NCBI RefSeq assembly: GCF_029278605.1
Contig: NZ_CP119574.1
Location: 310,001 to 374,000 of the forward strand
Source of the DNA: Cupriavidus sp. WKF15
GTDB lineage: Bacteria; Pseudomonadota; Gammaproteobacteria; Burkholderiales; Burkholderiaceae
Length of the DNA: 64,000 nucleotides
Direction of reading: 5' to 3'
Shown here: positions 2,472 through 61,582 of the stretch, in pieces
How the letters are laid out: each line of letters starts with the position of its first letter
Position numbering within the stretch: the first letter of the stretch is position 1
Position numbers and translations under genes: made by a program
Notes under the pieces: model-generated
Told to the model about the DNA's origin: nothing
What the model saw: the letters and a program-made list of their open reading frames with translations, nothing else
Databases searched by the model: none

Positions 2472-3664
2472 GGCAATGCTGATTAAGTCCTCCGCTTCAT
2501 GAGGAAGAGCGTTATGTGAGGGGATCAAGAACGCAAAGAGAAGAACATGAAGCAGATGACGTTGGCAGCGGGTGCAGATCAAGGGGCGGGATTCGAGCAA
2601 TACCGTAAGCCAACGCGACGTGAGGCATTTCTGGCGACGATGGAAACGATCGTGCCGTGGGGGGCGTTGTGCGCGGTGATCGAGCCGTACTATCCGAAGG
2701 CCGGCAACGGCCGGCCACCCATTGGCCTGGAGCGGATGCTGCGCATCCACTTTTTGCAGCACTGGTTCAACCTGGCGGATCTGGCTTGCGAAGAGGCGCT
2801 GTATGACAGCGCCAGCCTGCGCCGCTTTGTAGGTATTGACCTGGGTCGTGAGCCGGTGCCGGACGCCACCACGCTGCTGAAGCTTCGCCGCCTGCTGGAG
2901 AAGCACCAGCTTGCCGAGCGGCTGTTTGCTGAGGTAGGCCGGGTCCTGCAGGCCAGTGGCGTGAAGCTGAAGACCGGCACCATCGTGGATGCCACGATCA
3001 TCGGTGCCCCCAGTTCGACGAAGAACGAGGAGAAGGCTCGCGACCCCGAGATGCACCAGACGCGGAAAGGACAGCAGTGGTACTTTGGCATGAAACTGCA
3101 CATTGGCGTGGACAGCCAGAGTGGGTTGGCCCATTCGGCAGTCGTGACGCCGGCCAATGTCCACGACAAGCATGCGCTGCCCCAGTTACTGCATGGGCAG
3201 GAACAGCGCGTTTAAGATAGTGCCTACGCCAGTCAGCAGGAGCTGATCGCATCGAAAGCTCCTCACGCCAAGGACTTCACCAATCAGCGTACCCGCAAGA
3301 ACGGCCAGATTGACGAGGTGCAACGCGGGAAGAACCGAAACAAATCGAAGATCCGTGCCCGGGTCGAACATGTCTTTGCCGTGGTCAAGCGCCTGTGGGG
3401 CTTCACCAAAGTCCGCTACCGCGGCCTGAAAAAGAATGCCGGCCGGGCCTTCACAGCCCTAGCGCTGGCCAATCTTTACCTGAGCCCAGGACATCTGATG
3501 GGAGCAGTCCGCCCATAATGGGCGCGTGCGGGGCGAGCGCCTCGCCGACACACCCCGTTGGGGGCGCAGCATGCCAAAATCTCGTCATCACGGCCATTTT
3601 TCAAAGCGAATAGGCTCCACGTCGAACCGCTCCACAAAAATTCGGCAGCTTATTCAGCGTAGCC
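2472..3664 (+). mobile_element. IS5-family insertion sequence with CTAA target duplication
   Basis: The ends are defined by imperfect terminal inverted repeats: GGCAATGCTGATTAAG at 2472-2487 and CTTATTCAGCGTAGCC at 3649-3664 (13 of 16 positions match when one is reverse-complemented). CTAA sits directly outside both ends (2468-2471 and 3665-3668), which fits the YTAR target duplication of the IS5 family. The 1193-bp length is normal for the family. The single transposase gene inside is broken by one stop codon, so the element is probably immobile unless helped in trans. Confidence 0.85.
2547..3518 (+). pseudogene. IS5-family transposase split by an in-frame stop
   Basis: The DDE transposase reads from ATG 2547 to 3212, meets TAA at 3213-3215, and continues in the same frame (DSAYASQQELIASK) to the natural stop at 3518. 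No bases are lost or gained, so a point nonsense change is the simplest explanation. Motifs include TGTIVDATIIGAPSSTKN (first Asp region), KLHIGVDSQSGL (second) and the C-terminal RARVEHVFAVVKR block with the catalytic Glu. The stop falls in the segment where homologues have Y-G-D-A/S-Y, between the second Asp and the Glu. Intact length would be about 323 residues, like the transposase at 36580-37542. Confidence 0.85.
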
Positions 3665-3728
3665 CTAAAGCAGATTCCTCAACGAAGCAGTCCACGCGCC
3701 CACCTGAAACAGACGGGCGCACAATACA

Positions 3729-4190
3729 TCAATGCTCGTGCGGCTTCGAGATTCTTAGATCCGGGACCGTGACGGCTACCACCTCCGTAGCCAGGATCTT
3801 GTGGCTCGGGTCAGCCAACTCGAGCCGAAGCTTGTGCGGCCCCGGCGTGAGCCCGACGACGATGATCGGGTCTTCACTAGTATGGGCCCAGGTACCACGA
3901 ACGTCGTCTACTGTTACGTGCAGATGCCCGATGCGTGGCGAGATATCGACTGCTTGTTTGCCAAATACGGGCATGACGCGGAAATTCTCGGTCCGGAACT
4001 GGACAATGACTACGCCGCGCGCAAGCGGCTCGGCAAGTGCCGGGTACGCTATCAGCCTGGGGGCAGGCTCGCTGTTGAGCGGAAGAATGGCGGGTGGCCG
4101 CACGGCATCCTGTGCTGTTTGCGCGGATGCGCTTACGCAGAATGTCGCCGCAATGGCGACAGCCGCAAGGTACTTCAGGTTGTGGCGCAT
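3729..4190 (-). CDS. DUF6130-like exported protein
   Basis: The 153-residue protein starts at the ATG whose complement ends at 4190. It has a classic signal peptide (basic start RHNLK, hydrophobic AAVAIAATFCV, cleavage after ASA near residue 23), so it should be exported to the periplasm. The mature part contains the segment HLHVTVDDVRGTWAH followed by PGPHKLRLELADPSHK, the pattern of the small DUF6130 family, whose function is unknown. The sequence ends in a His-containing PHEH. It stands alone between an IS element and a broken Rrf2 gene on the other strand. Codon use looks native. Confidence 0.7.
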   Translation of the reverse strand: MRHNLKYLAAVAIAATFCVSASAQTAQDAVRPPAILPLNSEPAPRLIAYPALAEPLARGVVIVQFRTENFRVMPVFGKQAVDISPRIGHLHVTVDDVRGTWAHTSEDPIIVVGLTPGPHKLRLELADPSHKILATEVVAVTVPDLRISKPHEH

Positions 4191-46862: not shown

Positions 46863-47270
46863 TGTTCAAGCATCCGACCAGCGGTGCGCTCCAGTTAGTG
46901 CAGGAGCTGAAGTGGAACTGGTCTTCGAATACACCCCACTCTTGAATCGGCGGCTCAGTTGCGAGCTCATGACTTTCATGACGTTCGCGCAAATGCTGTG
47001 AGTTCCTGCAGGTGGACTTCTGTCATTTCACGCCTCACGCTGTCCTATCGACGGTACACAACGACCTGGTCGTGGCTGACTGTGAATGGCGTGAACATGT
47101 GCCCCAGGATGTCATTGCAGATCTTCGCTCGTGCCCCTCGGATCGAGCTGCCCATGAGTATTGCTCCATAACGCCACTCGTATTGGCGGTCGTCAATCCA
47201 CTGCGCTTAGCTCGTCGCGCTTGAAAGGTGTTGCGGGCTGGGCAAGTTGCGTGCGTTGACCAGAATGCGC
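46863..47270. other. Gap between helicase and TnpB element
   Basis: About 400 bp. A 28-codon frame (MFKHPTSGALQLVQELKW) starts directly at the helicase stop but is too short to support. Otherwise nothing recognisable. Confidence 0.4.
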
Positions 47271-47308
47271 GTCAAGCCCCGGACTTCAGGCCGGGGAAGG
47301 ATAGCGCG

Positions 47309-47356
47309 GACGCCGCAGGCGTCCTTGACAACGCATGAATCCTGATACGATTTATA
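47309..47356 (+). promoter_or_regulatory. Hairpin and possible promoter before tnpB
   Basis: TTGACA at 47325-47330 is a good -35 element; TACGAT (47346-47351) at 15-bp spacing or CGATTT at 17 bp is a weak -10. The hairpin GACGCCGCAGGCGTC immediately precedes it. Confidence 0.35.
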
Positions 47357-47358
47357 TC

Positions 47359-48576
47359 ATGCAACGACTCCAAGCCTTCAAGTACGAATTGATGCCGACC
47401 GGCGAACAGACGCGGGACATGCGCCGCTTCGCAGGTTCGTGCCGATTCGTCTACAACAAGGCGCTGGCGTTGCAGAAGCAGCGTTACGAGCAAGGCGAGA
47501 AGAAGCTCGGGTACGCTGGGCTGTGCAAGGAACTCACGGCCTGGCGCAAAGGCACCGAAACACCGTGGCTCGCCGATGCACCGACACATCCGCTGCAACA
47601 GACGCTGAAGGACCTGGAGCGAGCCTATACCAACTTCTTCGCCAAACGGGCCGACTTCCCGCGCTTCAAGAAGAAGGGGCAAAGCGACAGCTTTCGTTAT
47701 CCCGATCCGAAACAGATCAAGCTGGATCAGGCCAACAGTCGTATTTTCCTGCCCAAGCTCGGCTGGCTGCGCTACCGCAACAGCCGGGCCGTGTTGGGGG
47801 AAATGCGCAACGCTACGGTTTCCGTGAGCGCAGGGAAGTGGTTCGTCTCGATCCAGACGCAACGAGAGGTCGAAGCCCCCGTGCCACAGTCCGCCAGCGC
47901 CGTGGGCATCGATGTCGGCGTGGCCCGCTTCGCGACATTCAGCGACGGCAGCTACCTTGCCCCGCTAAATAGTTTCAAGCGGCACGAAGCCCGGCTGCGC
48001 CGAGCGCAGCAAACGATGAGCCGCAAACAGAAATTCAGCAGCAACTGGCAGAAGGCGAAGGCTAGAATCCAGCGCATTCACGCCCGCATCGGGAACGCCC
48101 GCCGCGACTACCTGCACAAAGCCACGACCACGATCAGCCAAAACCACGCGATGGTGTGTATCGAGGACTTGCAGGTGAGGAACATGTCCAGGTCGGCAGC
48201 GGGCAGCGCCGAGAAGCCAGGCAGGAACGTTCGGGCCAAGTCCGGCCTGAACAAAGCGATTCTGGATCAGGGCTGGTTCGAATTCCGCCGCCAGCTGGAA
48301 TACAAGCTGGCGTGGAACGGCGGCTGGCTTGTCGCAGTGCCGCCCGAAAACACGAGCCGGACATGTCCGGCGTGCAGCAGCGTGAGCGCGGACAACCGGC
48401 TTACACAAGCTGGCTTCGCCTGCATCGAATGCGGTTTCGAGGAAAACGCCGACGTCGTCGGCGCGATCAACGTTTTGGCGCGGGGACACCGCGTTGCAGC
48501 CTGTGGAGAGCCGGTGCAGTCAGGCCGCTCTGCGAAGCAGGAACCCGCCGAAGTGGCTGCGCAGCTCATCGCGTAG
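47359..48576 (+). CDS. tnpB: TnpB RNA-guided nuclease
   Basis: The 405-residue protein is a complete TnpB. It has the N-terminal helix-turn-helix (QTRDMRRFAGSCRFVYNKAL), the split RuvC nuclease with Asp185 (AVGIDVGVARFATF), Glu269 (VCIEDLQVRNMS) and Asp365 (EENADVVGAINVL), and a zinc ribbon with Cys336, Cys339, Cys355 and Cys358. All catalytic and zinc residues are intact, so it should be an active omega-RNA-guided DNA endonuclease, ancestor type of Cas12. The guide RNA is expected from the 3' end of the element. Confidence 0.94.
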   Translation: MQRLQAFKYELMPTGEQTRDMRRFAGSCRFVYNKALALQKQRYEQGEKKLGYAGLCKELTAWRKGTETPWLADAPTHPLQQTLKDLERAYTNFFAKRADFPRFKKKGQSDSFRYPDPKQIKLDQANSRIFLPKLGWLRYRNSRAVLGEMRNATVSVSAGKWFVSIQTQREVEAPVPQSASAVGIDVGVARFATFSDGSYLAPLNSFKRHEARLRRAQQTMSRKQKFSSNWQKAKARIQRIHARIGNARRDYLHKATTTISQNHAMVCIEDLQVRNMSRSAAGSAEKPGRNVRAKSGLNKAILDQGWFEFRRQLEYKLAWNGGWLVAVPPENTSRTCPACSSVSADNRLTQAGFACIECGFEENADVVGAINVLARGHRVAACGEPVQSGRSAKQEPAEVAAQLIA

Positions 48577-48646
48577 CGCCGTAGGAATCCCCTTCCTTTC
48601 CGCCGACAGGCGGCGACCGAAGGTCGAGGGAGGGGAGGATGTCAAG
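48500..48646 (+). ncRNA. Candidate omega-RNA scaffold for TnpB
   Basis: In IS200/IS605 elements the omega-RNA overlaps the end of tnpB and finishes at the right element end, with the guide just beyond. Here the stretch contains several complementary blocks (for example GGCGGCGACC and the C-rich CCCCTTCCTTTCC opposite GGGAGGGGAGG) and ends in GTCAA. The guide would begin at about 48647 (CTCTTGGGCTCGGTTT). Neither fold nor expression is shown. Confidence 0.4.
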
Positions 48647-48853
48647 CTCTTGGGCTCGGTTTGAAGCCTTTTCGATAGAGTGGAATGCTCCCCTCGTGCT
48701 CCTATCGCTTCACAGTTACTGATGGCCCCCCCGCTCGTGCCCGGGCAATGCGCGTAAATGGGGGGTGCGAGTCGGCTCGCGGGGATCGGTAGGTCAACTG
48801 AAACAAACGCTTAACCCGCTGGCGAGATCGGCTGGGTAAGAAAATTGCGGTCT

Positions 48854-50293
48854 TTAGGCGCGCGAGGACGTCATTCGCCCAAACACGAATTGGCCCAGAT
48901 ACCATGCCAACTCGGAGTTGGCCAAGATCACCTCTTCGGACACGGATGAAGCCTCCAGCTTCATCCTCTTCAACACGAGCTTACCCTCGCGCGAGGCCAG
49001 CCATGCCCGGACAAACTCCTGTCGTGCTTTGGTATCGGTCGCACCGAAGTGCTCGCGGCCCTGCCGCGATTCGTCGTTCATGCGAGCGCGAGTCTCGTCA
49101 TCACGCGAGGCGACACTGCGCTCCACGCTTGTCTTGACAGCAATTTTCGCGGCTTCCTTCTGTTCTTCTTCGACGAGCAGCTTGGTCTGGACCTGAACCA
49201 TCGTCCGTTCGGCCTCTGACATGCGCCAGTTGTCGCGCAAGGCCTTCATCAAATAGCCAGCGGGACTCTTCTTTATCTGACCGCGATTGAGTTTGAACCG
49301 CGTGTACTCGATCGCCTGCAGGATGCGATCATCGTTCCATGTCTCGCGGTTCTCGGAGATCTCGCCGAATTGACGAGTTGAGAGGTTGAACTCTTCCTTC
49401 AGGATCTTATAGATCTGGCTAGCATCGGACAGGCTTGCCATGACAGCGTCCGCCGTGTCCTTGCGCTTGAGGAGGAACCGAATCCGGTCAACCTTCTTGG
49501 AGGAAGTCGATTCGGTCTTGGTCTCATATGACAGCTCGATATCCGAGATCTCATTGATCTCACGAACTGCCGGCTCCAGCCAGTCGCGCTTGAAATACTT
49601 AAAAATGGTCGCATTCGCGCCCATTTTTCCGGGCCAGGTCCGCATCTCTTCGAGCTTGATCCAATCTGTACGCCCGTTGGGCACACTTGGCAGGACCTTG
49701 TCATAGATCGCGCGTGCGAGACTGCGGGTAAACGACGTTGAGATGCGAAGGCTGAGCCAGTGCGACTTGCGGGGGTCACGAATGTGCGGGATCAAGCTGT
49801 GATGCACGTCGAAACGAACGCGGCCGCGGTGCATCGCCACCATGCCGATCAACTGGACCTGGACCCAGATATCGTTCTCATCCGGCTCACGGTCTGACGG
49901 TGTATTGGTGACCCGGACCTTGGCGTTCTGCGCCTCGTCCGCGATGGTACGCAGATGCTTTAGGTTACGGCTGTCATAGCGCATCAACCACTTGAAGTAG
50001 TTCAGCTCGACATCGTATTGGTCTGGAACCTCCGGTTCTTGTGCAACGATGAAATACGCGGCATCGAGAAACCGTCGCGCCGCCAATCCCATGTTGACGA
50101 TTTCCGTGAAGAAATTATTGCGCTGATAGCCGATTTCTCGGTTGGCCTCATTGATGGGCAACCCGAGGTCAAACATGTCTTCGAACAATGCCAGCGCCAT
50201 TTGGCGAGGCGTGGTTCTCGCTTTGACTTCCACTGGATTGTCCGTCTCCATACTCGTCGTCTCGCTCGTCTTGTTCTCGGGCGACTCTAGCAT
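48854..50293 (-). CDS. Plasmid replication initiator protein
   Basis: The 479-residue protein begins at ATG 50293 (MLESPENKTSETTS); an upstream in-frame start at 50380 would place coding sequence in the iterons. An alternative start is 50251 (METDNPVEV). The middle part (QVQLIGMVAMHRGRVRFDVH, then LSLRISTSFTRSLARAIYDK and EMRTWPGKMGANATIFKYF) resembles the paired winged-helix domains of RepB/Rep_3-type iteron-binding initiators. The C-terminal third is charged and helical. The gene lies directly beside about 20 iterons and parAB, which supports the role. The incompatibility group is not assigned. Confidence 0.8.
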   Translation of the reverse strand: MLESPENKTSETTSMETDNPVEVKARTTPRQMALALFEDMFDLGLPINEANREIGYQRNNFFTEIVNMGLAARRFLDAAYFIVAQEPEVPDQYDVELNYFKWLMRYDSRNLKHLRTIADEAQNAKVRVTNTPSDREPDENDIWVQVQLIGMVAMHRGRVRFDVHHSLIPHIRDPRKSHWLSLRISTSFTRSLARAIYDKVLPSVPNGRTDWIKLEEMRTWPGKMGANATIFKYFKRDWLEPAVREINEISDIELSYETKTESTSSKKVDRIRFLLKRKDTADAVMASLSDASQIYKILKEEFNLSTRQFGEISENRETWNDDRILQAIEYTRFKLNRGQIKKSPAGYLMKALRDNWRMSEAERTMVQVQTKLLVEEEQKEAAKIAVKTSVERSVASRDDETRARMNDESRQGREHFGATDTKARQEFVRAWLASREGKLVLKRMKLEASSVSEEVILANSELAWYLGQFVFGRMTSSRA

Positions 50294-50298
50294 GTGAT

Positions 50299-50615
50299 GG
50301 TGAGGTCCTGTCAACACAACAAACCTCACCTTCACGTTGGTCCGTCGCGCTGTCGGCTCAGTTTGGGGTGACGCGCACAATGAACCTCACCAGACGCACA
50401 ACCAACCTCACCAATATCCGTTACGCGTGTGGTTCGAACCATAGCCCCGCCTGGGCAAAACGGACTTGTCCACACGTGCCGCACAATACATCTCACCTTC
50501 GGGGTGTTTGCACAATGAGCCTCACCTTGTCGCGGAATAGACCTCACCTGCGCCACACAGTAAACCGCACCTTGGCAGCACAGAGAACCTCACCAATGAC
50601 ACAGCTAACCTCACC
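50299..50615. repeat. Iteron cluster 1 of the replication origin
   Basis: About nine copies of a 17-bp word, consensus GCACAATNNACCTCACC, follow in the same orientation upstream of rep (examples: GCACAATGAACCTCACC at about 50377, GCACAACCAACCTCACC at about 50397, GCACAATGAGCCTCACC at about 50511), with one partial copy inverted at 50299. Initiator binding here would both start replication and repress rep. A near-match to a DnaA box (TTGTCCACA) lies at 50466-50474. Confidence 0.85.
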
Positions 50616-50886
50616 TTTGGAGGGTTAAGTCATTGATCGAAAAGGATTTCGTGATTCTCCGTTTGTTGGCTAGGTGGTTTACTTCAAAAAACATCCAACC
50701 AACACGGGACTTGCAGTCTCGAAGCAGTGCGCATTGACCTATTGATCTCTGCACAAGCAGCGTACCCATTTCTGCGTCCCTGTAGTCGTGATCTCTAACT
50801 GGAACGGCGCCGAAGTTGCAAGAGGATCGCTGGGGTCATGTACACCCACTTGGACAGGGCAAGGCCAACACCGCGCTCAGCTGCAG
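50616..50886. other. Iteron-free gap between the two iteron clusters
   Basis: About 270 bp lack iterons and genes. The left half is richer in A/T than its surroundings and could be the DNA-unwinding element. No further DnaA box was found by eye. Confidence 0.45.
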
Positions 50887-51379
50887 GGTGAGGTTCCTTG
50901 TGCCTGAGATGAAGGTGAGGTTTCTTGTGCTGACTATTAGATAGGTGGAGGGCACAACAAACCTCACCGCCGCTCCCAGGCAAAGGGGCTCGCCGCTCAA
51001 AGGATGGTGAGGTCCATTGTGCATCGGCGGACAGGTGCACCCCGCTCCACTCTTGACGGCTGAAAATCGTCGTCACTGCGACGTGATGAGGCTCCAGCGC
51101 TAATCCATGCTGTAAAGCAGCACAAAGGACCTCACCATCTCTGCTTTTGCGTCATGCCTTTCTTTGTATGGGTCGTGCAAAGGTGAGGTGGATTGTGCTT
51201 AAGAGGTGCCCTCCCCACACCAAACGTCCGACCACCTTGTACTGGGAGGGAACGAAGGTGAGGTTCATTGTGCTAGAGTTCGCCAAGTTCACTTCTCCAG
51301 TTCTGCCGAACGGCACAATCGACCTCACCTTGGCCGGTGGCGACGGCGATGAACAGGTTGAAGGTGAGGTCATTTGTGC
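50887..51379. repeat. Iteron cluster 2, mixed orientation
   Basis: Nine further copies of the same 17-bp word occur here in both orientations (for example GGTGAGGTTCCTTGTGC at 50887, GGTGAGGTCCATTGTGC at about 51005, GCACAATCGACCTCACC at about 51313, GGTGAGGTCATTTGTGC at 51363). A degenerate copy follows at about 51400. The cluster ends about 80 bp before the parA operator. Confidence 0.85.
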
Positions 51380-51460
51380 CACCTTTTGGCTTTGCTTATA
51401 AGGTGAGGAATGTCGCACGGCTTTCCAAAGCCATCATGTGAACCCCAAGACGTCCAGAGG

Positions 51461-51479
51461 TTGCCTAAAATTTAGGCAA
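51461..51479. promoter_or_regulatory. Perfect palindrome upstream of parA
   Basis: TTGCCTAAAATTTAGGCAA is a perfect 9-1-9 palindrome about 110 bp before parA. ParA proteins with an N-terminal helix-turn-helix usually repress their own promoter by binding such a site, so this is a likely parAB operator. Confidence 0.65.
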
Positions 51480-51550
51480 AATCGTTGTTTTCAAAGAAAC
51501 TTTAGTTAAAAAACAGCGATTTATGAGCCGTTGCTCAAGTGTTTCCTGTA

Positions 51551-51588
51551 TTCTGAGCTTTATCGAGTTATCCGGATAAACCTCAGAA
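51551..51588 (+). promoter_or_regulatory. Hairpin touching the parA start codon
   Basis: TTCTGAGCTTTATC (51551-51564) and GATAAACCTCAGAA (51575-51588) are complementary at 13 of 14 positions, and the last base is the A of the parA ATG. A smaller palindrome TTATCCGGATAA (51568-51579) overlaps the loop. It may be an operator or an RNA hairpin limiting translation. Confidence 0.5.
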
Positions 51589-52799
51589 TGGTGAAAACGA
51601 GCCAACTTCCAGCAGTCGACCGAACTGTACCGCTAGAGCAGATATCCCAGTTCGCGGAAAAGGTCACCATTTTTACAGACGAACTTCGCGAGACGATTCT
51701 CGCACCGCGGCCGCGAAAAACCGCACCGATTTTCAAGACGGGGGAGATTGCAGACCTGTGCAACATCTCCCACTCGCAAGTTCAGTACCTCGCGACCAAG
51801 GGAGACGGCGAATTGCCACCCGGAAAGGCTGCCGGTACTGGGCGTACCCGAACCTTCACGCTCGAGGAGGCACGCATCTGGGTGCAGAAGGTCTCCGACA
51901 TTTACCAGACGCCGTTGGTCACAGGCACGCGAGAGCCCGAAGGAAAAATCATTATTACCGCCCAGCTCAAGGGCGGCTCGGCAAAGACGACCACGACTAT
52001 GTGCCTAGCTCAGGGGCTGACATTACGTGGCAGAAAGGTCCTGGTTGTCGACCTGGATCCTCAGGCCTCACTCTCGGAACTGTGTGGCTTGTACGCCGAG
52101 AAGGATGTCACGCCAGAAGACACGGTCTTGCCTTATATCTACGACCAGCAAATCGAGGGGGGACTGCAGGGAAGCATCCAGTCAACCTATTGGGATGGCC
52201 TTGACCTGATCCCTGCGCATACCGAACTGATTGGGGCAGAGTTCCATCTGCCCGCGATGCAGAAAATCAAGCCTGGCTTTCGCTTCTGGACGGTGCTGAG
52301 GGAAGGGTTAGAGCCGTTGCGCAAGCACTATGACTATATCCTCATGGATACGTCTCCCTCGCTTTCCTACATGAACCTGAACGCCTTGCTGGCGGCAGAC
52401 GCGATGGTCATGCCGATGGTTCCTGAGAACCTCGACTTCATCAGCTCGCTGTCGTTCTGGCGCTTGTTTTCAGACGTCTCCAAAAGCTTCATCAAGTATG
52501 AAGCCGACAAGAAATACGACTTCGTCTCGTTGCTGCTCTCGAAGGTCGATTATGGGCGCACCTCGTCGGCACCCATTGTGCGTGCCTGGGCGCAGAGCGC
52601 TTATGAGAAGTGGCTGCATTCGATCGAGGTGCCGGCGAGTTCGGTGATGAGCACCGGGGCGCTGGCATTCTCGACAGTGTTCGACGTGAGTAGCACGCAT
52701 AGCGCGGCCAAGTCGCTGCAGCGCGTGCGTCAGCCGATTATGGATTATTGCCGGTGGTTGGATGAAATCTATGCAGAAAAATGGAGGAGCGCGCAATGA
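51588..52799 (+). CDS. parA: ParA partition ATPase with N-terminal DNA-binding domain
   Basis: The 403-residue protein starts at ATG 51588 (MVKTSQLPAVDRTV). Residues about 40-100 form a MerR-like helix-turn-helix (TGEIADLCNISHSQVQYLA and RTFTLEEARIWVQKV), as in large type Ia ParA proteins that autoregulate. The deviant Walker A motif is KGGSAKTTTT (residues near 130-140), followed by VLVVDLDPQASLSELCGLY and YILMDTSPSLSYMNLNALLA (Walker B). It positions plasmid copies along the nucleoid with ParB. Its stop overlaps the ParB start (ATGA). Confidence 0.94.
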   Translation: MVKTSQLPAVDRTVPLEQISQFAEKVTIFTDELRETILAPRPRKTAPIFKTGEIADLCNISHSQVQYLATKGDGELPPGKAAGTGRTRTFTLEEARIWVQKVSDIYQTPLVTGTREPEGKIIITAQLKGGSAKTTTTMCLAQGLTLRGRKVLVVDLDPQASLSELCGLYAEKDVTPEDTVLPYIYDQQIEGGLQGSIQSTYWDGLDLIPAHTELIGAEFHLPAMQKIKPGFRFWTVLREGLEPLRKHYDYILMDTSPSLSYMNLNALLAADAMVMPMVPENLDFISSLSFWRLFSDVSKSFIKYEADKKYDFVSLLLSKVDYGRTSSAPIVRAWAQSAYEKWLHSIEVPASSVMSTGALAFSTVFDVSSTHSAAKSLQRVRQPIMDYCRWLDEIYAEKWRSAQ

Positions 52800-53767
52800 G
52801 CAATATGCGAGAACAGCTGCTGGCTAAGACGGCGGGCATCCGCAAGACCTCGGCGATTCAGCAGGACGAAGTCAAGCGTAGCGAGCGGACCCAGACGGCG
52901 CCTGGCCTTACCGGGGCGCTCGCCGTTGCGCAACTCCGTGTCCAGGAGTTGGAGGCAGCCGGCGTCGCGTCGCAACTCGCTGTCGCCGAGATCGTGCCGA
53001 ATCCATGGCAGCCCCGGCGCGTGTTTAGTGAAGCCAAGCTGTCGGAGCTTGCAGAGTCGATTCGTGAGGTGGGACTCATGCAGCCGATCGTGGTACGCCG
53101 CGGTGAATCCGGCTACCAGATTGTGGCTGGGGAGCGCCGGTGGCGCGCCCACAAAATGCTTGGGCTCGATACCGTCAAGGCCGTGGTCGTGGAGTGTTCT
53201 GATGCGGATATGGCGGTGCTCGCCATGGTCGAGAATATCAGTCGCGACGACCTTTCTGACTATGAAATCGCGCTGTCGGTCCGGCGCACGGAGAAGGAAT
53301 TTCCGTCCCGCGTGCGACTTGCAGAGGCGCTTGGCCTGTCCAAGAGCGGTCTTTATCGATTCCTTAGCTTCGCGCAGTTGCCGGATTTCGTTTTGCAGGA
53401 TCTCGACCTTCAACCGCGGCTGCTCGGCGGAAGCGCGGCCGAAGCTATTGTCACGACGATTCGGAAGTATGGTGAAGCTGGCAACGATGCTGCGAAAGAG
53501 ATTTGGCCGCTCGTAGCATCGGGAAAGATGGAGCAAGGGAAAGTCGCTGGCGCTATCAAAGCACTCGCCACCCGGCGCGCATCGGCGCCAAGTTCCGCGA
53601 GTGAGCGAAGTATTGACAAGTTCTTTTCCGGCAGGGAACAGGCTGGTTCCATTACGAAGGACGTCAACGGCTTCACGGTGAAGATTAGAGCTGGGGTTCT
53701 GTCCGAGGCCCTGGAGACGCAAATCCGACAGCTCATCAGCGAATCGTTCCACCACCAGCCCAAGTAG
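52796..53767 (+). CDS. parB: ParB centromere-binding protein
   Basis: The 323-residue protein has the ParB/Spo0J N-terminal CTP-binding domain (IVPNPWQPRRVFSEAKLSEL and GYQIVAGERRWRAHKMLGLD), the second box ENISRDDLSDYEIALSV, and a helix-turn-helix (RVRLAEALGLSKSGLYRFLS). A C-terminal dimerisation part follows. It overlaps parA by four bases (ATGA) and is followed by a strong terminator and the 39-bp repeat array, which could contain its binding sites. Confidence 0.93.
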   Translation: MSNMREQLLAKTAGIRKTSAIQQDEVKRSERTQTAPGLTGALAVAQLRVQELEAAGVASQLAVAEIVPNPWQPRRVFSEAKLSELAESIREVGLMQPIVVRRGESGYQIVAGERRWRAHKMLGLDTVKAVVVECSDADMAVLAMVENISRDDLSDYEIALSVRRTEKEFPSRVRLAEALGLSKSGLYRFLSFAQLPDFVLQDLDLQPRLLGGSAAEAIVTTIRKYGEAGNDAAKEIWPLVASGKMEQGKVAGAIKALATRRASAPSSASERSIDKFFSGREQAGSITKDVNGFTVKIRAGVLSEALETQIRQLISESFHHQPK

Positions 53768-53787
53768 GTACACCTACAAGTAACCAC

Positions 53788-53813
53788 GCCCGCTTCGAGC
53801 GGGCTTTTTTTTT
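53788..53813 (+). terminator. Rho-independent terminator of parAB
   Basis: GCCCGCT (53788-53794) pairs with AGCGGGC (53798-53804) around TCG and is followed by nine T. It lies 20 bp after the parB stop. Confidence 0.92.
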
Positions 53814-53839: not shown

Positions 53840-55420
53840 GGTCGACCTTCCCAAGTTGGGGCAGTGCCAAGTACGGCTCGCAGACCTTCCCAAGTTGGGA
53901 CGGTGCCCGGCGCAGTTCGTTGGCCTTCCCATGTTGGGATAGTGCCAAGCACGGCGCGCCGATCTTCCCAAGTTGGAACAGCGCCGGGCTGCGGCTCGTC
54001 GACCTTCCCAAGTTGGGACGCTACCAGGCACAGCTCGAGGATCTTCCCAAGTTGGGACGCCGCCGGGTCCGACTCGTAGACCTTCCCCGGTTGGACGCCG
54101 CCGGGCACGGCTCGTCGACGTCCTAAGTTGGGATGCAACCAGGCACAGCTCGCGGACCGTCCCGAGTTGGGACGCAACCAGGCGCACCTCGCTGACCTTC
54201 CCAAGTTGGGACGCTGCCCGGCACGGCTCGCTGACCTTCCCAAGCTGGGACGCCGCCAGGCGCGGCTCGTCGACCTTCCCAAGTTGGGACGCTACCAGGC
54301 ACAGCTCGCGGATCTTCCCAAGTTGGGACGCCGCCGGGTCCGACTCGTAGACCTTCCCAGGTTGGACGCCGCCGGGCACGGCTCGTCGACCGTCCTAAGT
54401 TGGGACGCTACCAGGCGCACCTCGCTGACCTTCCCAAGTTGGGACGGTGCCCGGCGCAGCTCGTTGGCCTTCCCATGTTGGCATAGTGCCAAGCACGGCG
54501 CGCCGATCTTCCCAAGCTGGGACAGCGCCGGGCCGCGGCTCGTCGACCTTCCCAAGTTGGGACGCTACCAGGCACAGCTCGCGGATCTTCCCAAGTTGGG
54601 ACGCCGCCGGGTCCGACTCGTAGACCTTCCCAGGATGGACGCCGCCAGGCACAGCTCGTCGACCGTCCTAAGTTGGGACGCCGCCAGGCACGGCTCGCGG
54701 ACCGTCCCGAGTTGGGACGCTACCAGGCACAGCTCGCGGACCGTCCTAAGTTGGGACGCTACCAGGCACAGCTCGCGGACCGTCCCGAGTTGGGACGCTA
54801 CCAGGCGCACCTCGCGGACCTTCCCAAGTTGGGACGGTACCTGGCGCGGCTCGTCGACCTTCCCAAGTTGGGACGGTACCTGGCGCGGCTCGTCGACCTT
54901 CCCAAGTTGGGACGGTGCCAGGCGCGGCTCGCTGACCTTCCCAAGTTGGGACGGTGCCAGGCGCGGCTCGTCGACCTTCCCAAGTTGGGACGGTACCTGG
55001 CGCGGCTCGTCGACCTTCCCAAGTTGGGACGGTGCCAGGCGCGGCCCGCCGACCTTCCCAAGTTGGGACGCTGCCCGGCGCGACTCGCTGACCTTCCCAA
55101 GTTGGGACGCTACACGGCGCGGCTCGTCGGCCTTCCCAAGTTGGGACGCTGCCAAGCGTGGCCCGCCGACCTTCCCAAGTTGGGACGGTGCCTGGCACGG
55201 CTCGCTGGCCTTCCCAAGTTGGACGGTGTCTGACCCGGGTCGCCGACCTTCCCAAGTTGGACGGTGTCTGACCCGGGTCGCCGACCTTCCCTATTTTGGA
55301 CGCTGCCCGGCGCGGCCCACCGACCTTCCCAAATTGCGACGTTGCTTGGCGCGACTCACCGACCATCCCAGTTCGGGAAGCTGACGAGCGGCATTCGTGT
55401 CGTTCCCAAGTTGGGGCGGC
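53840..55420. repeat. About 41 tandem 39-bp repeats with a palindromic core
   Basis: From 53848 to about 55403 the block TTCCCAAGTTGGGA recurs every 39 bp (spacings of 37-40, mostly exactly 39), giving about 41 units. Each unit holds the palindrome TCCCAA-N-TTGGGA and a G/C-rich spacer of the type CGCTACCAGGCRCGGCTCG. Unit edges vary (CCGAGTTGGGA, CCATGTTGGGA, CCCGGTTGGA). 39 is a multiple of three, so long repeat-coded frames appear on both strands, but none has a gene-like start. Lying directly behind parB, it is a candidate plasmid centromere; ParB spreading or incompatibility functions are inferred. Confidence 0.9.
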
Positions 55421-55743: not shown

Positions 55744-57039
55744 CTACGCGACGCCTGGAATTTTGCCGGCTAGCGCATGCGCTACGTCTTCCAGCGCTTC
55801 GTGGGTGTACCGCCGCGTGGTGTTGATGTCCCGGTGCCGCAAGGCACGCTGCACGTCGGTTACCGGTACGCCGGCGCGTAGCAGATGTGTGGCATGCGTA
55901 TGCCGTAGCCAGTGCGTCGACGCGGCCCGGAGTCGGGCCGCTTCCTCGCTACGGCGCCCTCGCTCCAGGCGGTCGGCCGCTTCGGCGAATGCCGCGCGTA
56001 CGACCGCGTAGATCCCTTGGCGCGTACGCAGCGGCTGGCTCAGCTTTCGATGGAGCTCAACCGTATCGGCCAGCGGTGCGGCGCGCAGCCGCCCGCTGGC
56101 GATCGCCGGGATGACCGCCATGGTGTCGGTGGCACTCGGCGTCGGCGGCAATCCCACCAAACGGCGCCACCGCGCTAGTTCGTCCATCGCGTTGTCGCAC
56201 GGCACCAGTTGATCGTTGCCACCTTTGGCGTGACGGATGCGTACGGTCCAGAACGCACCGGACCGGCCAGGATGGCGTTCGAAATCCGCCCACGTCAGCC
56301 CGGTCACCTCGGAGGCGCGTAGTCCCGTCTGGAACAGCAGCGCAACTAGCAGGCGGTCGCGCGCCTGGTGTAGTTGCGCCCATCGTGTCGGCGCCGGACG
56401 CGCTTCGATCGCTTCGAATACCGCGGCGACCTGTTCCAGTTCGAGAAAACGCCGCTGAGAGCCCGGCCCTGTGGCAGCGCGCACGCGCGGCACTGACGCG
56501 AACGGATTGATCCGCAGCGCCCCAATCCGTACCAGCCAGTCGAACAGGCCGCCCACGATAACTGCGCTCTGGCGCCGCGATGCCTCGGAAAGCGGGCCAC
56601 GCAGCGGCCGCCAAGCCGCGCTGCCGCGACGCGCCCTGGCGTCGCTAACCGCGTGCGCCGGCGGGTCACGCAGGAAGGCAAGATAGTCGCTGGCATGGGT
56701 AACCTGCCAGCTGGTGATGGGTCGGCCCAGCGCATGCGCATACCACAGCAGGCGCTGCGCCTCGAGTTCGTACTGACTGCGCGTGCTGGCGCGCAGACCA
56801 AGGCCCGCTGCGGACTTGGCGTCGATCCATGCGCGCACCAGCTCGGCGTCGGAGAGCCCACCCGGCAGCACCGGGCTAGCCAGCGCATTCGGCGAGAGCA
56901 AGGTATCCATTGGCGGGGCAGTTTGGGCAGATGTCATGGCTGGCCACGGCGGAGGTAGGTAGCCGGCTGGCGCATCACCGGGCAGGACCAGCGGCGGGCT
57001 CTCGAGCCAGATGTGACCCATTATATCTAGCCAGTACAT
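55744..57039 (-). CDS. Tyrosine recombinase (XerC/D-like, plasmid resolvase type)
   Basis: The protein has an N-terminal core-binding (SAM-like) domain (STRSQYELEAQRLLWYAHAL) and a catalytic domain with the Arg box LFQTGLRASEVTGLTW, the Lys-bearing hairpin RIRHAKGGNDQLVPC, the HxxR box STHWLRHTHATHLLRAG and the Tyr nucleophile in INTTRRYTHEAL. I prefer the ATG at 57039 (431 residues) or 56937 (397 residues), because the frame above 57043 overlaps the palindrome. Next to rep, parAB and the repeat array it likely resolves plasmid multimers; an integrase role is the alternative. Confidence 0.85.
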   Translation of the reverse strand: MYWLDIMGHIWLESPPLVLPGDAPAGYLPPPWPAMTSAQTAPPMDTLLSPNALASPVLPGGLSDAELVRAWIDAKSAAGLGLRASTRSQYELEAQRLLWYAHALGRPITSWQVTHASDYLAFLRDPPAHAVSDARARRGSAAWRPLRGPLSEASRRQSAVIVGGLFDWLVRIGALRINPFASVPRVRAATGPGSQRRFLELEQVAAVFEAIEARPAPTRWAQLHQARDRLLVALLFQTGLRASEVTGLTWADFERHPGRSGAFWTVRIRHAKGGNDQLVPCDNAMDELARWRRLVGLPPTPSATDTMAVIPAIASGRLRAAPLADTVELHRKLSQPLRTRQGIYAVVRAAFAEAADRLERGRRSEEAARLRAASTHWLRHTHATHLLRAGVPVTDVQRALRHRDINTTRRYTHEALEDVAHALAGKIPGVA

Positions 57040-57042
57040 TGC

Positions 57043-57068
57043 CTTACCATTATTCGGATAATGGTAAG
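57043..57068. promoter_or_regulatory. 11-4-11 palindrome, candidate recombination site
   Basis: CTTACCATTAT (57043-57053) and ATAATGGTAAG (57058-57068) are perfect inverted 11-mers around TCGG. Arms of this length are typical for one pair of tyrosine-recombinase binding sites; read as 9-bp arms with an 8-bp spacer it fits a crossover core. It lies immediately upstream of the recombinase. An operator is the alternative. Confidence 0.5.
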
Positions 57069-57324
57069 TAAAAACGGAGCATGCGCACCGCACCTCGATC
57101 TGAGATGGCGATCATCTTTGGTCCGCTGGGCGGTCCAGGCACCTCTCGGTAGGAAGGTCCAATAGCCGGAAAGCGCAGAACTGCCTAGGACTCCCTCAGA
57201 TGTCCCTCGCCATCCGGTCCCATCTGTGTTGGGGGCGCTAAGTGCTTGATCTATAACAAAATTCAATGAGCGTCACATCGAACCGGGCTCAAAATGCTGA
57301 TATAAACGCAATGTAAATTATTTT
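57069..57324. other. Gap between recombinase and intron-like sequence
   Basis: About 255 bp with nothing recognised apart from A/T-rich stretches that could serve as a promoter of the recombinase. Confidence 0.4.
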
Positions 57325-59051: not shown

Positions 59052-60707
59052 GTGGGTAAGACCACGGTCTCGAGTATGGGGATGAGGATTGCAACGAAGC
59101 GCGAACTGGCGATTGCGAGGGTCCTACGTCCGTTGGGGAGGGCGCAGCTCTCGCGAAAGCAAGCTGAGATCGCTGGAAAATTGCTTGGAATCCATTGGGC
59201 TACGGTTTATCACCTGCGCCGGCGCTTCCTCGCAGATCCTGTGGCGAGCGCGTTGATACCTTATGACCGAGGTCCCAAAGTGGGAAAGCCGCGTCTAGCA
59301 GCGACTGTCGAGGAAATCGTGGGTGAGGTCCTGACCGATTGGCTGCCGCGACAGCGTCATCTCGCTCATCCGCTTTTCGAGCTTGAGGTCGAAATCCGGA
59401 AGAGATGCGCAGGGGCCAGTGTTAGTCCGCCAAGCAGGTCCACCATTTCGAGACGCTGGGCCGCCCATCGAAAAGAAGAAGCTCTTAGGCTCGCAACGCT
59501 GCCGGGTTCTGAGATTCCCCCAGGCCATCTTGTCGCGCGTTGTCCGATGGACATTGTGCAGATTGATCACACGCTGGCCGACTTGATGCTGGTCGATGAT
59601 GCTAGTCGACGCCCAATTGGCCGGCCATGGCTGAGCATAGCCCTCGACGTTTCGACCAGATGCGTCGTCGGCATCTATGTCGGGATGGACCGCCCCAACG
59701 CGGCCACGGTCGCGTTGCTGTTGACCCGCGTTGTCCTGCCGAAGGACGGCTGGCTCGCCAGCCTCGATGTGAGTGTTGATTGGCCCATGCACGGTCTTCC
59801 ACAGCTACTTCACCTCGATAATGCGGCCGAATTCAAGAGCAGGGCATTGCGATCGGGGTGTCGGGAGTATGGTGTTGAACTGATGTATCGACCTGCAGGA
59901 CGGCCGTACTTTGGGGGGCATATCGAACGCTTGATGCGGACCGTCATGGAACGTGTCCATAGCTTGCCCGGATCGACTGGATCGTCACCCAAGGGGCGCA
60001 AGGCCAGGCCGCCGGAAAAGGAAGCCTCCTTGACGATCCGGGAATTTGAGCGGTGGCTAGTTCTCGAGATTGGCGAACGCTATCACCAAAACGCCCACCA
60101 CGGGCTGCAGGGAGCGACACCGTTTTCGGAGTGGGCCATGGCAAGTCGGAAGACGCCCCCACGCGCACTTCCCAATGCGGCGCCTGAACCCCTGCGTTTC
60201 CTCATCCAATTCTTGCCGATGACCTATCGGACCGTGCAGTCAGATGGGCTGACGCTGTTCTACCTCCGATACTGGCACCCGATATTCGCGGCCTGGCGGG
60301 CGACAAAGCAAAAAGTTATTGCAAGGTACCACCCCGAGGATCTCTCCAGGATCTTTGTCAGCGTCGACGGAAAACACTACGTTGAGGCGACATTTGCAGA
60401 CTTGCGCCGTGGCCGAGTGTCATTGTGGGAGCAACGCAGTGCGTTACGGCGCTTACGATCACAAGGGAAAGAGTTCATCACAGAAGCAAAGGTCTTTGCA
60501 GCGATTGACGAGCAACGTCGGATTGTCTCCCGCGCTAGATCGCAAACGTTGGGGGCAGGCCGTCAAGGCGAGGCGCTGAAGGAACTGGCGCCTCAGATTA
60601 TTGGTGCGGCGTCAAGCACGGTGCGTGCAGACGCGTTGCACAAGCAGTCTGAGCCTGCGCTGGATTACAACAAGCCGCCCCCAGTGTTCAGTGTGGAGCT
60701 CCTGTAG
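59052..60707 (+). CDS. tniA: TniA/TnsB-like DDE transposase
   Basis: The protein (551 residues from GTG 59052; ATG at 59076 or 59082 are alternatives) has N-terminal helix-turn-helix domains (SRKQAEIAGKLLGIHWATVY and SPPSRSTISRRWAA) and a retroviral-integrase-type core with Asp in MDIVQIDHTLADLML, Asp in LLHLDNAAEF and Glu in YFGGHIERLMRTVMERVH. A Mu-transposase-like C-terminal beta-barrel follows (RARYHPEDLSRIFVSVDGKH-like). This is the Tn5053/Tn402 TniA type related to Tn7 TnsB. The ATPase gene starts five bases later. Confidence 0.92.
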   Translation: MGKTTVSSMGMRIATKRELAIARVLRPLGRAQLSRKQAEIAGKLLGIHWATVYHLRRRFLADPVASALIPYDRGPKVGKPRLAATVEEIVGEVLTDWLPRQRHLAHPLFELEVEIRKRCAGASVSPPSRSTISRRWAAHRKEEALRLATLPGSEIPPGHLVARCPMDIVQIDHTLADLMLVDDASRRPIGRPWLSIALDVSTRCVVGIYVGMDRPNAATVALLLTRVVLPKDGWLASLDVSVDWPMHGLPQLLHLDNAAEFKSRALRSGCREYGVELMYRPAGRPYFGGHIERLMRTVMERVHSLPGSTGSSPKGRKARPPEKEASLTIREFERWLVLEIGERYHQNAHHGLQGATPFSEWAMASRKTPPRALPNAAPEPLRFLIQFLPMTYRTVQSDGLTLFYLRYWHPIFAAWRATKQKVIARYHPEDLSRIFVSVDGKHYVEATFADLRRGRVSLWEQRSALRRLRSQGKEFITEAKVFAAIDEQRRIVSRARSQTLGAGRQGEALKELAPQIIGAASSTVRADALHKQSEPALDYNKPPPVFSVELL

Positions 60708-60712
60708 TCGCG

Positions 60713-61582
60713 ATGCGCGCGCTGCTGACCCACTTACTCCCGGCCGCCAGAGAACTGGCACTGTGCGACGACGGTGTCAGAATTAAAGGCTTGGCACGTG
60801 GCCATTGGATAGACTACCCGCGCGCTACCCAAGCATTGGAGATTCTCGAGCGTCTCCTGCAGACACCTCAGCGAGAGCGTATGCCGTGCCTACTGCTGCA
60901 CGGAGATTCCAACATTGGTAAGACACAGATTGTTTCGAAGTTCCAGCGTCGTCATCCACCTGAGTATGACGAAGAGAAGGGCGTCGAGTTGCGAAGCATT
61001 GTTGCCATGCAGATGCCGCCGACACCCGATCAGTCGCGTTTCTATTCTTCATTGCTCTTTGAACTGGGCGCCCCCTTCAACTCGGCGGCAAGACTATCTG
61101 CGCTTGAGAATCTGAGTCGCGCACTGCTTCGAAAGGTCTCGGCGCGCATGCTGATCGTTGACGAGGTTCATCATCTGCTTGCCGGCAATTATCGGGAACA
61201 GCGTGCGTCCTTAAATTTATTGAAGTTCCTCGCCAATGACTTGAAAATTGCTGTTGTGCTGGTCGGCACGCAAGACGCCGTCATGGCCCTCGAAACGGAT
61301 CCCCAGATGGTCAGTCGATTCTCCCGTCTCGAGGTGCCGAGATGGCAAGAAACGGAGGCATTTCGTTCTCTTCTTGCCGCCTTCGAGATGATCTTGCCGC
61401 TTCGACGTCCGTCGAATCTCGCACGGCGAGAGATGGTACATGCCATTCTGATAGCAAGTGGGGGGCTGACAGGGGAAGTTTCGCGCGTCTTGACCGTTTC
61501 CGCAGAACTAGCGATCCGCGATGGGCAGGAGGCTATCGGCCTGGGTCACATCGAGAATGCCGCGCGGACCCTGGTCTCCTGA
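60713..61582 (+). CDS. tniB: TniB transposition ATPase
   Basis: The 289-residue AAA+ protein has Walker A LLLHGDSNIGKTQIV, Walker B ARMLIVDEVHHLL, sensor 1 IAVVLVGTQDAVM and an arginine region MVSRFSRLEVPRW, followed by a helical lid. TniB/TnsC proteins bind target DNA and activate the DDE transposase. It is in operon with tniA (5-bp gap) and its 3' end overlaps the start of the tniQ frame. Confidence 0.93.
   Translation: MRALLTHLLPAARELALCDDGVRIKGLARGHWIDYPRATQALEILERLLQTPQRERMPCLLLHGDSNIGKTQIVSKFQRRHPPEYDEEKGVELRSIVAMQMPPTPDQSRFYSSLLFELGAPFNSAARLSALENLSRALLRKVSARMLIVDEVHHLLAGNYREQRASLNLLKFLANDLKIAVVLVGTQDAVMALETDPQMVSRFSRLEVPRWQETEAFRSLLAAFEMILPLRRPSNLARREMVHAILIASGGLTGEVSRVLTVSAELAIRDGQEAIGLGHIENAARTLVS

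Follow-up and report, generated by a model that had tools for sequence, protein, structure and literature searches.

In the 64,000-nucleotide stretch of Cupriavidus sp. WKF15 DNA analyzed here (the window; bases 310001-374000 of contig C3, which is 904,440 bp long in a genome of three contigs and 7.38 Mb), the partition gene parB is followed by 41 tandem copies of a short palindrome. In ParABS systems, ParB dimers load at their sites, slide, and build a partition complex that is moved by ParA. Based on comparison with related loci, we regard the array as very probably the parS centromere of the megaplasmid's ParABS system, an expansion of a palindrome that follows parB in few copies across the family. 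We favor this reading because the palindrome is family-wide with a clade-specific core, and because ParB and its site covary.

The initial annotation described about 41 tandem units, mostly of 39 bp, with the dyad TCCCAA-N-TTGGGA. The recount agrees: anchoring on the dyads gives 41 units with core starts from 53847 to 55402, and the 40 spacings comprise 31 of 39 bp, seven of 38 bp and two of 40 bp (mean 38.9; a chance match at 55149, which splits one 39-bp gap, was excluded). Tandem Repeats Finder (TRF) reports 39.6 copies of period 39 at 53843-55383. The array starts 27 bp past the parB terminator, as first annotated, because the T-run of the terminator ends at about 53813. Compared with 1.86 matches expected in the window (100 shuffles, largest 8), the motif TCCCAANTTGGGA has 40 at up to two mismatches, 38 of them inside the array; 19 are exact. 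Genome-wide, 33 of 37 matches at up to one mismatch lie inside the array. By our own arithmetic, 39 bp is a non-integer number of helical turns.

The units are directional. At position 7 of the arms, counted outward, 26 of 33 units (up to one mismatch) are asymmetric, all in the same direction; the left arm has T and the right arm has G in 31 units and A in two. We dropped a description of the outer positions as eroded (loss of an outer GTG) because the consensus at positions 8-9 is a new one, CC in each arm, which leaves position 7 as the sole asymmetric position. Blocks of seven units, about 273 bp, recur within the array. The spacers average 67% identity to one another, which does not fit a CRISPR array of identical repeats and unique spacers (cas genes were not searched for).

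Relatives were sought among 94 distinct ParB loci from PLSDB plasmids, genome contigs and a genus search (59 other genomes), after removal of 26 duplicates. The closest plasmid relatives of the window are Cupriavidus megaplasmids. A plasmid database search for the 39-bp array beside this ParB, suggested with the initial annotation, was positive: five PLSDB megaplasmids (C. necator C39, C. necator N-1 pBB1, Cupriavidus sp. KK10, Cupriavidus sp. P-10 and C. oxalaticus X32) have arrays at the same place, with ParBs 90-97% identical and 13.6 to 48.5 copies (TRF). Overall, all 11 loci with a ParB at least 89.6% identical, the window among them, carry an array of 14-58 sites at up to two mismatches, 7-34 exact. 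The array of Cupriavidus lacunae (L021) has 58 such sites, or 63 at up to three mismatches over 2.5 kb; in L023 and L106 the spacing is less even, commonly 35-40 and 69-73 bp. The number of sites, flagged early as unusual, is indeed so, given that the 71 other loci with an assigned core have 1-6 exact sites (1-11 at up to two mismatches). An exact two-unit pattern, which misses diverged arrays, was found in 9 of 398 family genomes, all from the genus of the window (1 of 25 genera). Among Cupriavidus records of known length, six with arrays (the window's contig included) are 0.90-1.67 Mb and three without are 0.51-0.69 Mb. Replicon size fails as a general rule for many sites: Paraburkholderia replicons of 1.24, 1.44 and 1.47 Mb (L010, L011 and L052) have 3, 3 and 1 exact sites.

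The palindrome itself is much more widespread than the array. In most of the 94 loci a GTGTC-core-GACAC palindrome lies 3' of parB, in 1-6 exact copies outside the array clade, with the first copy usually 60-130 bp past the last parB codon. Its core varies with ParB clade: TCTAGA in 31 loci (1-5 exact sites), TCAGTA in 13 (1-2) and TCCATA in six (2-6). Read outward, the arm consensus is A-N-N-N-C-T-G-T-G, in which C-T-G-T-G (positions 5-9) is the non-array consensus and the inner bases are clade-dependent. In the 400 bp that follow parB, 90% of 91 loci have an odd-centered palindrome with arms of at least 6, versus 16% of 1257 control pieces, and 60% versus 1.5% have one with arms of at least 8; even-centered palindromes in the same interval are not enriched (13% versus 18% in controls). 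The seven nearest non-array loci, with ParBs 84-87% identical, have sparser sites. Six of them have the TCCCAA core at 5-11 dispersed sites (up to two mismatches) with median arms of 7.5-8 (TGTCCCAAnTTGGGACA), and the seventh (L025) lacks an exact core and has 14 inexact sites, mostly with a one-base change. Some palindromes in few-site relatives are perfectly symmetric over 35-51 bp (51 bp at L012:9200-9300); such long perfect palindromes, also seen in L011, L052, L053, L058 and L062, are much longer than a helix-turn-helix (HTH) dimer would be expected to need.

The same comparisons bear on the role of the gene beyond the array. The array was originally placed between parB and a resolvase-type recombinase gene; the placement stands, but the gene encodes a tyrosine recombinase. 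The units could be accessory or core sites at which this adjacent enzyme resolves multimers, with ParB binding elsewhere. Consistent with this, the recombinase is 72-89% identical in nine of the ten other array loci (L001-L005 and L020-L023; the sequence of the tenth, L106, spans only 1500 bp), whereas in the seven nearest non-array loci there are 24-27% matches in L006 and L007 and none at E 1e-8 in the other five. However, the TCCCAA palindrome follows parB also in relatives without this recombinase, homologs of 27-42% occur in loci without such an array, the core changes with ParB from locus to locus, and the outer base with a residue of the ParB HTH. The alternative suggested early on, ParB sites at the parA palindromes, finds no support either: in 47001-53800 the 17-mer TGTCCCAANTTGGGACA has no counterpart at under five mismatches. 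We consider recombinase sites a very unlikely explanation.

The covariation of ParB and its site is most evident at residue 183 (numbered from the ATG at 52796; V173 and K183 are 172 and 182 in alignments A1 and A2, columns 178 and 188). Every one of the 11 array loci has lysine here, as do two of the 83 others, L043 and L044. Only two of 328 columns, those of residues 173 and 183, separate these 13 ParBs from the rest (residues present in at most three other ParBs), and that of residue 183 does so by construction, because the set is defined by K183. At sites with up to one mismatch, the 69 R183 loci with a core have G7 in 423 of 448 half-sites, and in 66 of these loci G7 has a share of 70% or more. 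For the array loci, T7 stands in the left arm of 263 of 290 sites and G7 in the right arm of 277 of 290, while L043 and L044 have T7 in 15 of 16 half-sites. T mostly replaces guanine at position 7, in one or both arms, in the 13 K183 loci and in none of the 69 R183 loci. As a control, 114 other close pairs took the place of L043/L044; 112 share no rare residue identical to the window and two share one. The real pair shares one, K183.

The closest solved structures to the window ParB are Spo0J/ParB/Noc/KorB proteins, with Noc/ParB/Spo0J the best Foldseek matches, and an AlphaFold model (mean pLDDT, predicted local distance difference test, of 75) has helices at 171-178 and 182-193 (alignment numbering). 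GERRxR and ENxxRxDL we take to be the cytidine triphosphate (CTP)-binding motifs of the ParB CTPase clamp; GERR (111-114, alignment A2), E145, N146 and R149 are invariant in 43 ParBs and align with the CDP (cytidine diphosphate)-bound structure 6sdk. By these motifs, the window ParB is a predicted CTPase clamp. K183 aligns with R173 of Caulobacter ParB and, by our alignments, presumably shares its column with R149 of Bacillus subtilis. Caulobacter R173 hydrogen-bonds parS guanine 1 and the equivalent glutamine of Noc (Q158) reads adenine (A1) (PMC7383237), and B. subtilis R149 is needed for specific parS binding, which R149G loses (PMC5731820). Guanine 1 of Caulobacter parS is, by our own count, seven bases from the center.

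Several observations weigh against the centromere reading. The array loci as a single clade are weakly supported (89/28), and they are also marked by their own tyrosine recombinase. No core was assigned in 12 of the 94 loci: four of these have variant sites (L025, L031, L067 and L083), one (L015) carries an unlike array with a 79-bp unit, and in seven nothing was recognized, three of the seven having at most 1761 bp of downstream sequence. In three R183 loci, L042, L045 and L047, A7 accounts for at least half of the half-sites. Two K183 lineages, themselves defined by K183, underlie the covariation; they are separate on the best tree (two changes; base 7 needs five), but an approximately unbiased (AU) test does not reject a single K183 clade (p 0.135). 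Both independent pairs agree, for which a sign test gives p 0.5, two pairs being too few to reach significance. Finally, L043 and L044 combine K183 with no more than 4-5 sites, which means that this residue alone does not entail an array.

Tandem repeats are typical of iterons and a Rep3 initiator gene is nearby, and the array might thus be read as Rep-binding iterons or as an incompatibility or copy-control element. There is, however, a separate set of 18 CCTCACC repeats at rep-parA, which is likely the replication origin and distinct from the array, and most of the 15 plasmid loci that were inspected have tandem repeats of 20-23 bp before parA. The array unit is palindromic, lies beyond parB and differs from the CCTCACC repeats, so the two are not the same repeat; we judge an iteron function highly improbable, more so than recombinase sites. 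Even less credit goes to a repetitive protein encoded by the array (39 bp being 13 codons), for which a 418-codon open reading frame (ORF) listed on the plus strand might speak. Long frames are open on both strands (longest 103-434 codons in the six frames), units of 38 and 40 bp break the frame, and relatives differ in which frame is longest; we therefore rejected coding repeats.

Comparison of nine arrays shows that the 13-bp core is 0.82-0.95 identical between them and the spacer 0.42-0.72, and consensus units of distant arrays have ACCTTCCCAAnTTGGGACG in common and little else. Thus, the dyad and its asymmetry are kept while the spacer drifts. Together with the clade-tracking core and the residue-base covariation, this supports the ParB encoded beside the array as its probable partner, as first proposed. 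Rapid homogenization, another early suggestion, is not clearly supported, since spacer identity is 0.67 within the window array and 0.66 or 0.67 between it and the arrays of L001 and L021, yet block duplication is visible in the window array. The window array shares no exact unit (spaced by 38-40 bp) with any of the eight other arrays. From these comparisons, copy number and unit order evidently turn over.

Such turnover could reflect satellite growth, neutral or selfish, by slippage and unequal exchange, with one or a few units sufficient for partition, an idea compatible with a centromere. The range of 14 to 58 sites (up to two mismatches) among close plasmids, the duplicated seven-unit blocks and the lack of a shared exact unit are in line with it. 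So is mini-F, for which a single sopC repeat is reportedly enough for partition, a result attributed to Biek and Shi in 1994. On the other side, none of the 11 loci has fewer than 14 sites, and the dyad and its position-7 asymmetry are retained as spacers diverge. We regard neutral growth as a serious possibility, somewhat short of an even chance.

If the array is the parS centromere, each 39-bp unit would be one ParB dimer site. The HTH of ParB would dock on the unit, after which the protein would close into a CTP clamp and slide onto neighboring DNA, and nucleoid-bound ParA would move the ParB-loaded replicon; binding, clamp loading and segregation at the array are inferred. In the array clade, the helix residue predicted to read the outer base is Lys in place of Arg (with V173), and one arm of most sites presents T in place of G. 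More speculatively, many re-specified one-directional sites may stand in for few symmetric ones. A further model, which we offer tentatively and think less likely than not, is a directional multi-site ParB-loading array: R183K and V173 with one-arm re-specification (T7 left, G7 right) would go with 14-58 mostly same-oriented sites, the partition complex would depend on how many weaker or asymmetric sites there are and on their phase, in place of a few strong symmetric ones, and their orientation may bias clamp sliding. The dozens of sites would fit a kinetic advantage, neutral expansion, or compensation for sites that were re-specified and are asymmetric. Site number and arm length correlate negatively (Spearman -0.62, n=81 of 94, uncorrected for kinship), which we do not count as evidence of compensation.

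The window has features of a type Ia ParABS (F/P1), namely an HTH-type ParB_N ParB directly after parA and an inverted-repeat probable centromere adjoining parB. In type Ia systems a DNA-binding N-terminal region of ParA precedes the Walker ATPase domain; here AAA_31 begins at residue 139 of the 422-aa parA ORF, which leaves a long N-terminal region of type Ia layout, but Pfam reports no HTH family in it. The nearest parallel is F sopABC, with the same order of parA, parB and centromere and a tandem array with one inverted repeat per unit read by a ParB dimer. F sopC consists of twelve 43-bp repeats after sopB (PMC9178275), ten of which are called functional (PMC7205306), compared with 41 of 39 bp in the window and 58 sites in L021, and the window palindrome is odd-centered, with asymmetry at position 7 in most units. 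We therefore see the array as most likely a centromere of sopC-like design, but larger and for the most part asymmetric, always in one direction. Among the 14 distinct PDB sequences that match the window ParB (E up to 1), none is named SopB, with which no direct comparison was made.

Burkholderiales megaplasmids and chromids also have the Bsr ParABS systems, whose palindromic parS sites are 16 bp with a central CG and replicon-specific; one of them, in R. pickettii 12J, has a natural asymmetric parS in five repeats, and lower ParB/parS affinity is suggested to sometimes improve a Par system (PMC5450999). Unlike these, the window palindrome (TCCCAAnTTGGGA and relatives) is odd-centered, has no central CG and is far more numerous, and we do not assign it to the Bsr family. 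Chromosomal ParB/Spo0J-parS and Noc-NBS resemble the window in having the closest solved structures and the same helix residue reading the outermost base, although the palindrome differs and K183-T7 would be a third residue-base state. C. necator NH9 pENH92 (L015) has a different parB-linked array at 3512-3955: tandem repeats with GTGTCCCG-AA-CGGGACAC arms, inverted as in the window, follow a 59%-identical ParB, but the unit is 79 bp in about five copies. No title or abstract opening that we found describes the present array, in a search that left subscription papers mostly uncovered, and an earlier mention is possible.

The main features of the region are collected in Table 1. The parB ATG overlaps the parA stop, and a rep homolog is present in 87 of the 94 ParB loci (tblastn). 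As a perfect palindrome, the putative parA operator is not conserved: a shorter perfect form occurs in L023 and L024 only, imperfect forms not having been sought. The tyrosine recombinase is possibly a multimer-resolution enzyme. Genes for a Mu-type transposase C-terminal domain and TniB at 59052-61582 make up a Tn5053-like transposition module close to the par genes, and an IS605 OrfB/TnpB-like gene adjoins rep at 47335-48576. Contig C3 encodes a second ParB_N protein at 181084-181356 (589-aa frame). On contig C2 nothing matches ParB_N at E 0.001, which points to a partition protein of a different type or to one that escaped detection. In Cupriavidus sp. UYMMa02A (L053), parB has an in-frame stop.

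Table 1. Features of the partition region, in window coordinates
Feature	Coordinates	Strand	Basis or remark
Rep3-family replication initiator gene	48854..50380	-	Pfam Rep3_C E 7.6e-08; Rep3_N E 2.6e-04, just under cut-off
CCTCACC/GGTGAGG iteron-like repeats, 18, both orientations	50299..51408		Sequence scan; first two within rep ORF 5' end
19-bp palindrome before parA, possibly the ParA operator	51461..51479		Sequence scan
parA, 403 aa	51588..52799	+	Pfam AAA_31 E 9.9e-34; start set from relatives' annotated 1212-bp parA
parB, 323 aa, ParB_N and HTH	52796..53767	+	ParB_N E 6.4e-31; start set from relatives' annotated 972-bp parB
ParB V173 codon	53312..53314	+	V in 11/11 array loci; L in L043/L044; K/T/S/A/R in other 81
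ParB K183 codon	53342..53344	+	K in 11/11 array loci and L043/L044; R in other 81
parB terminator	53788..53813	+	Sequence; hairpin 53788-53804, then T-run to about 53813
Probable parS array, 41 tandem dyads, one orientation, mostly 39 bp apart	53840..55420		Consensus CC[T/G]TCCCAAnTTGGGACG
Tyrosine recombinase gene	55744..57093	-	Pfam Phage_integrase E 1.1e-21; conserved beside array

There is no settled account of the number of parS sites that a replicon requires or of the reason for it, and arrays persist even though one sopC repeat reportedly suffices for mini-F. The pairing of R with G and of K with T, at a position known from Caulobacter ParB and Noc, is a predicted specificity switch. 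ParBs 84-100% identical to that of the window come with natural versions of 5, 10, 14, 22, 28, 45 and 58 sites (up to two mismatches), so that the number, strength and orientation of sites can be compared directly among close ParBs.
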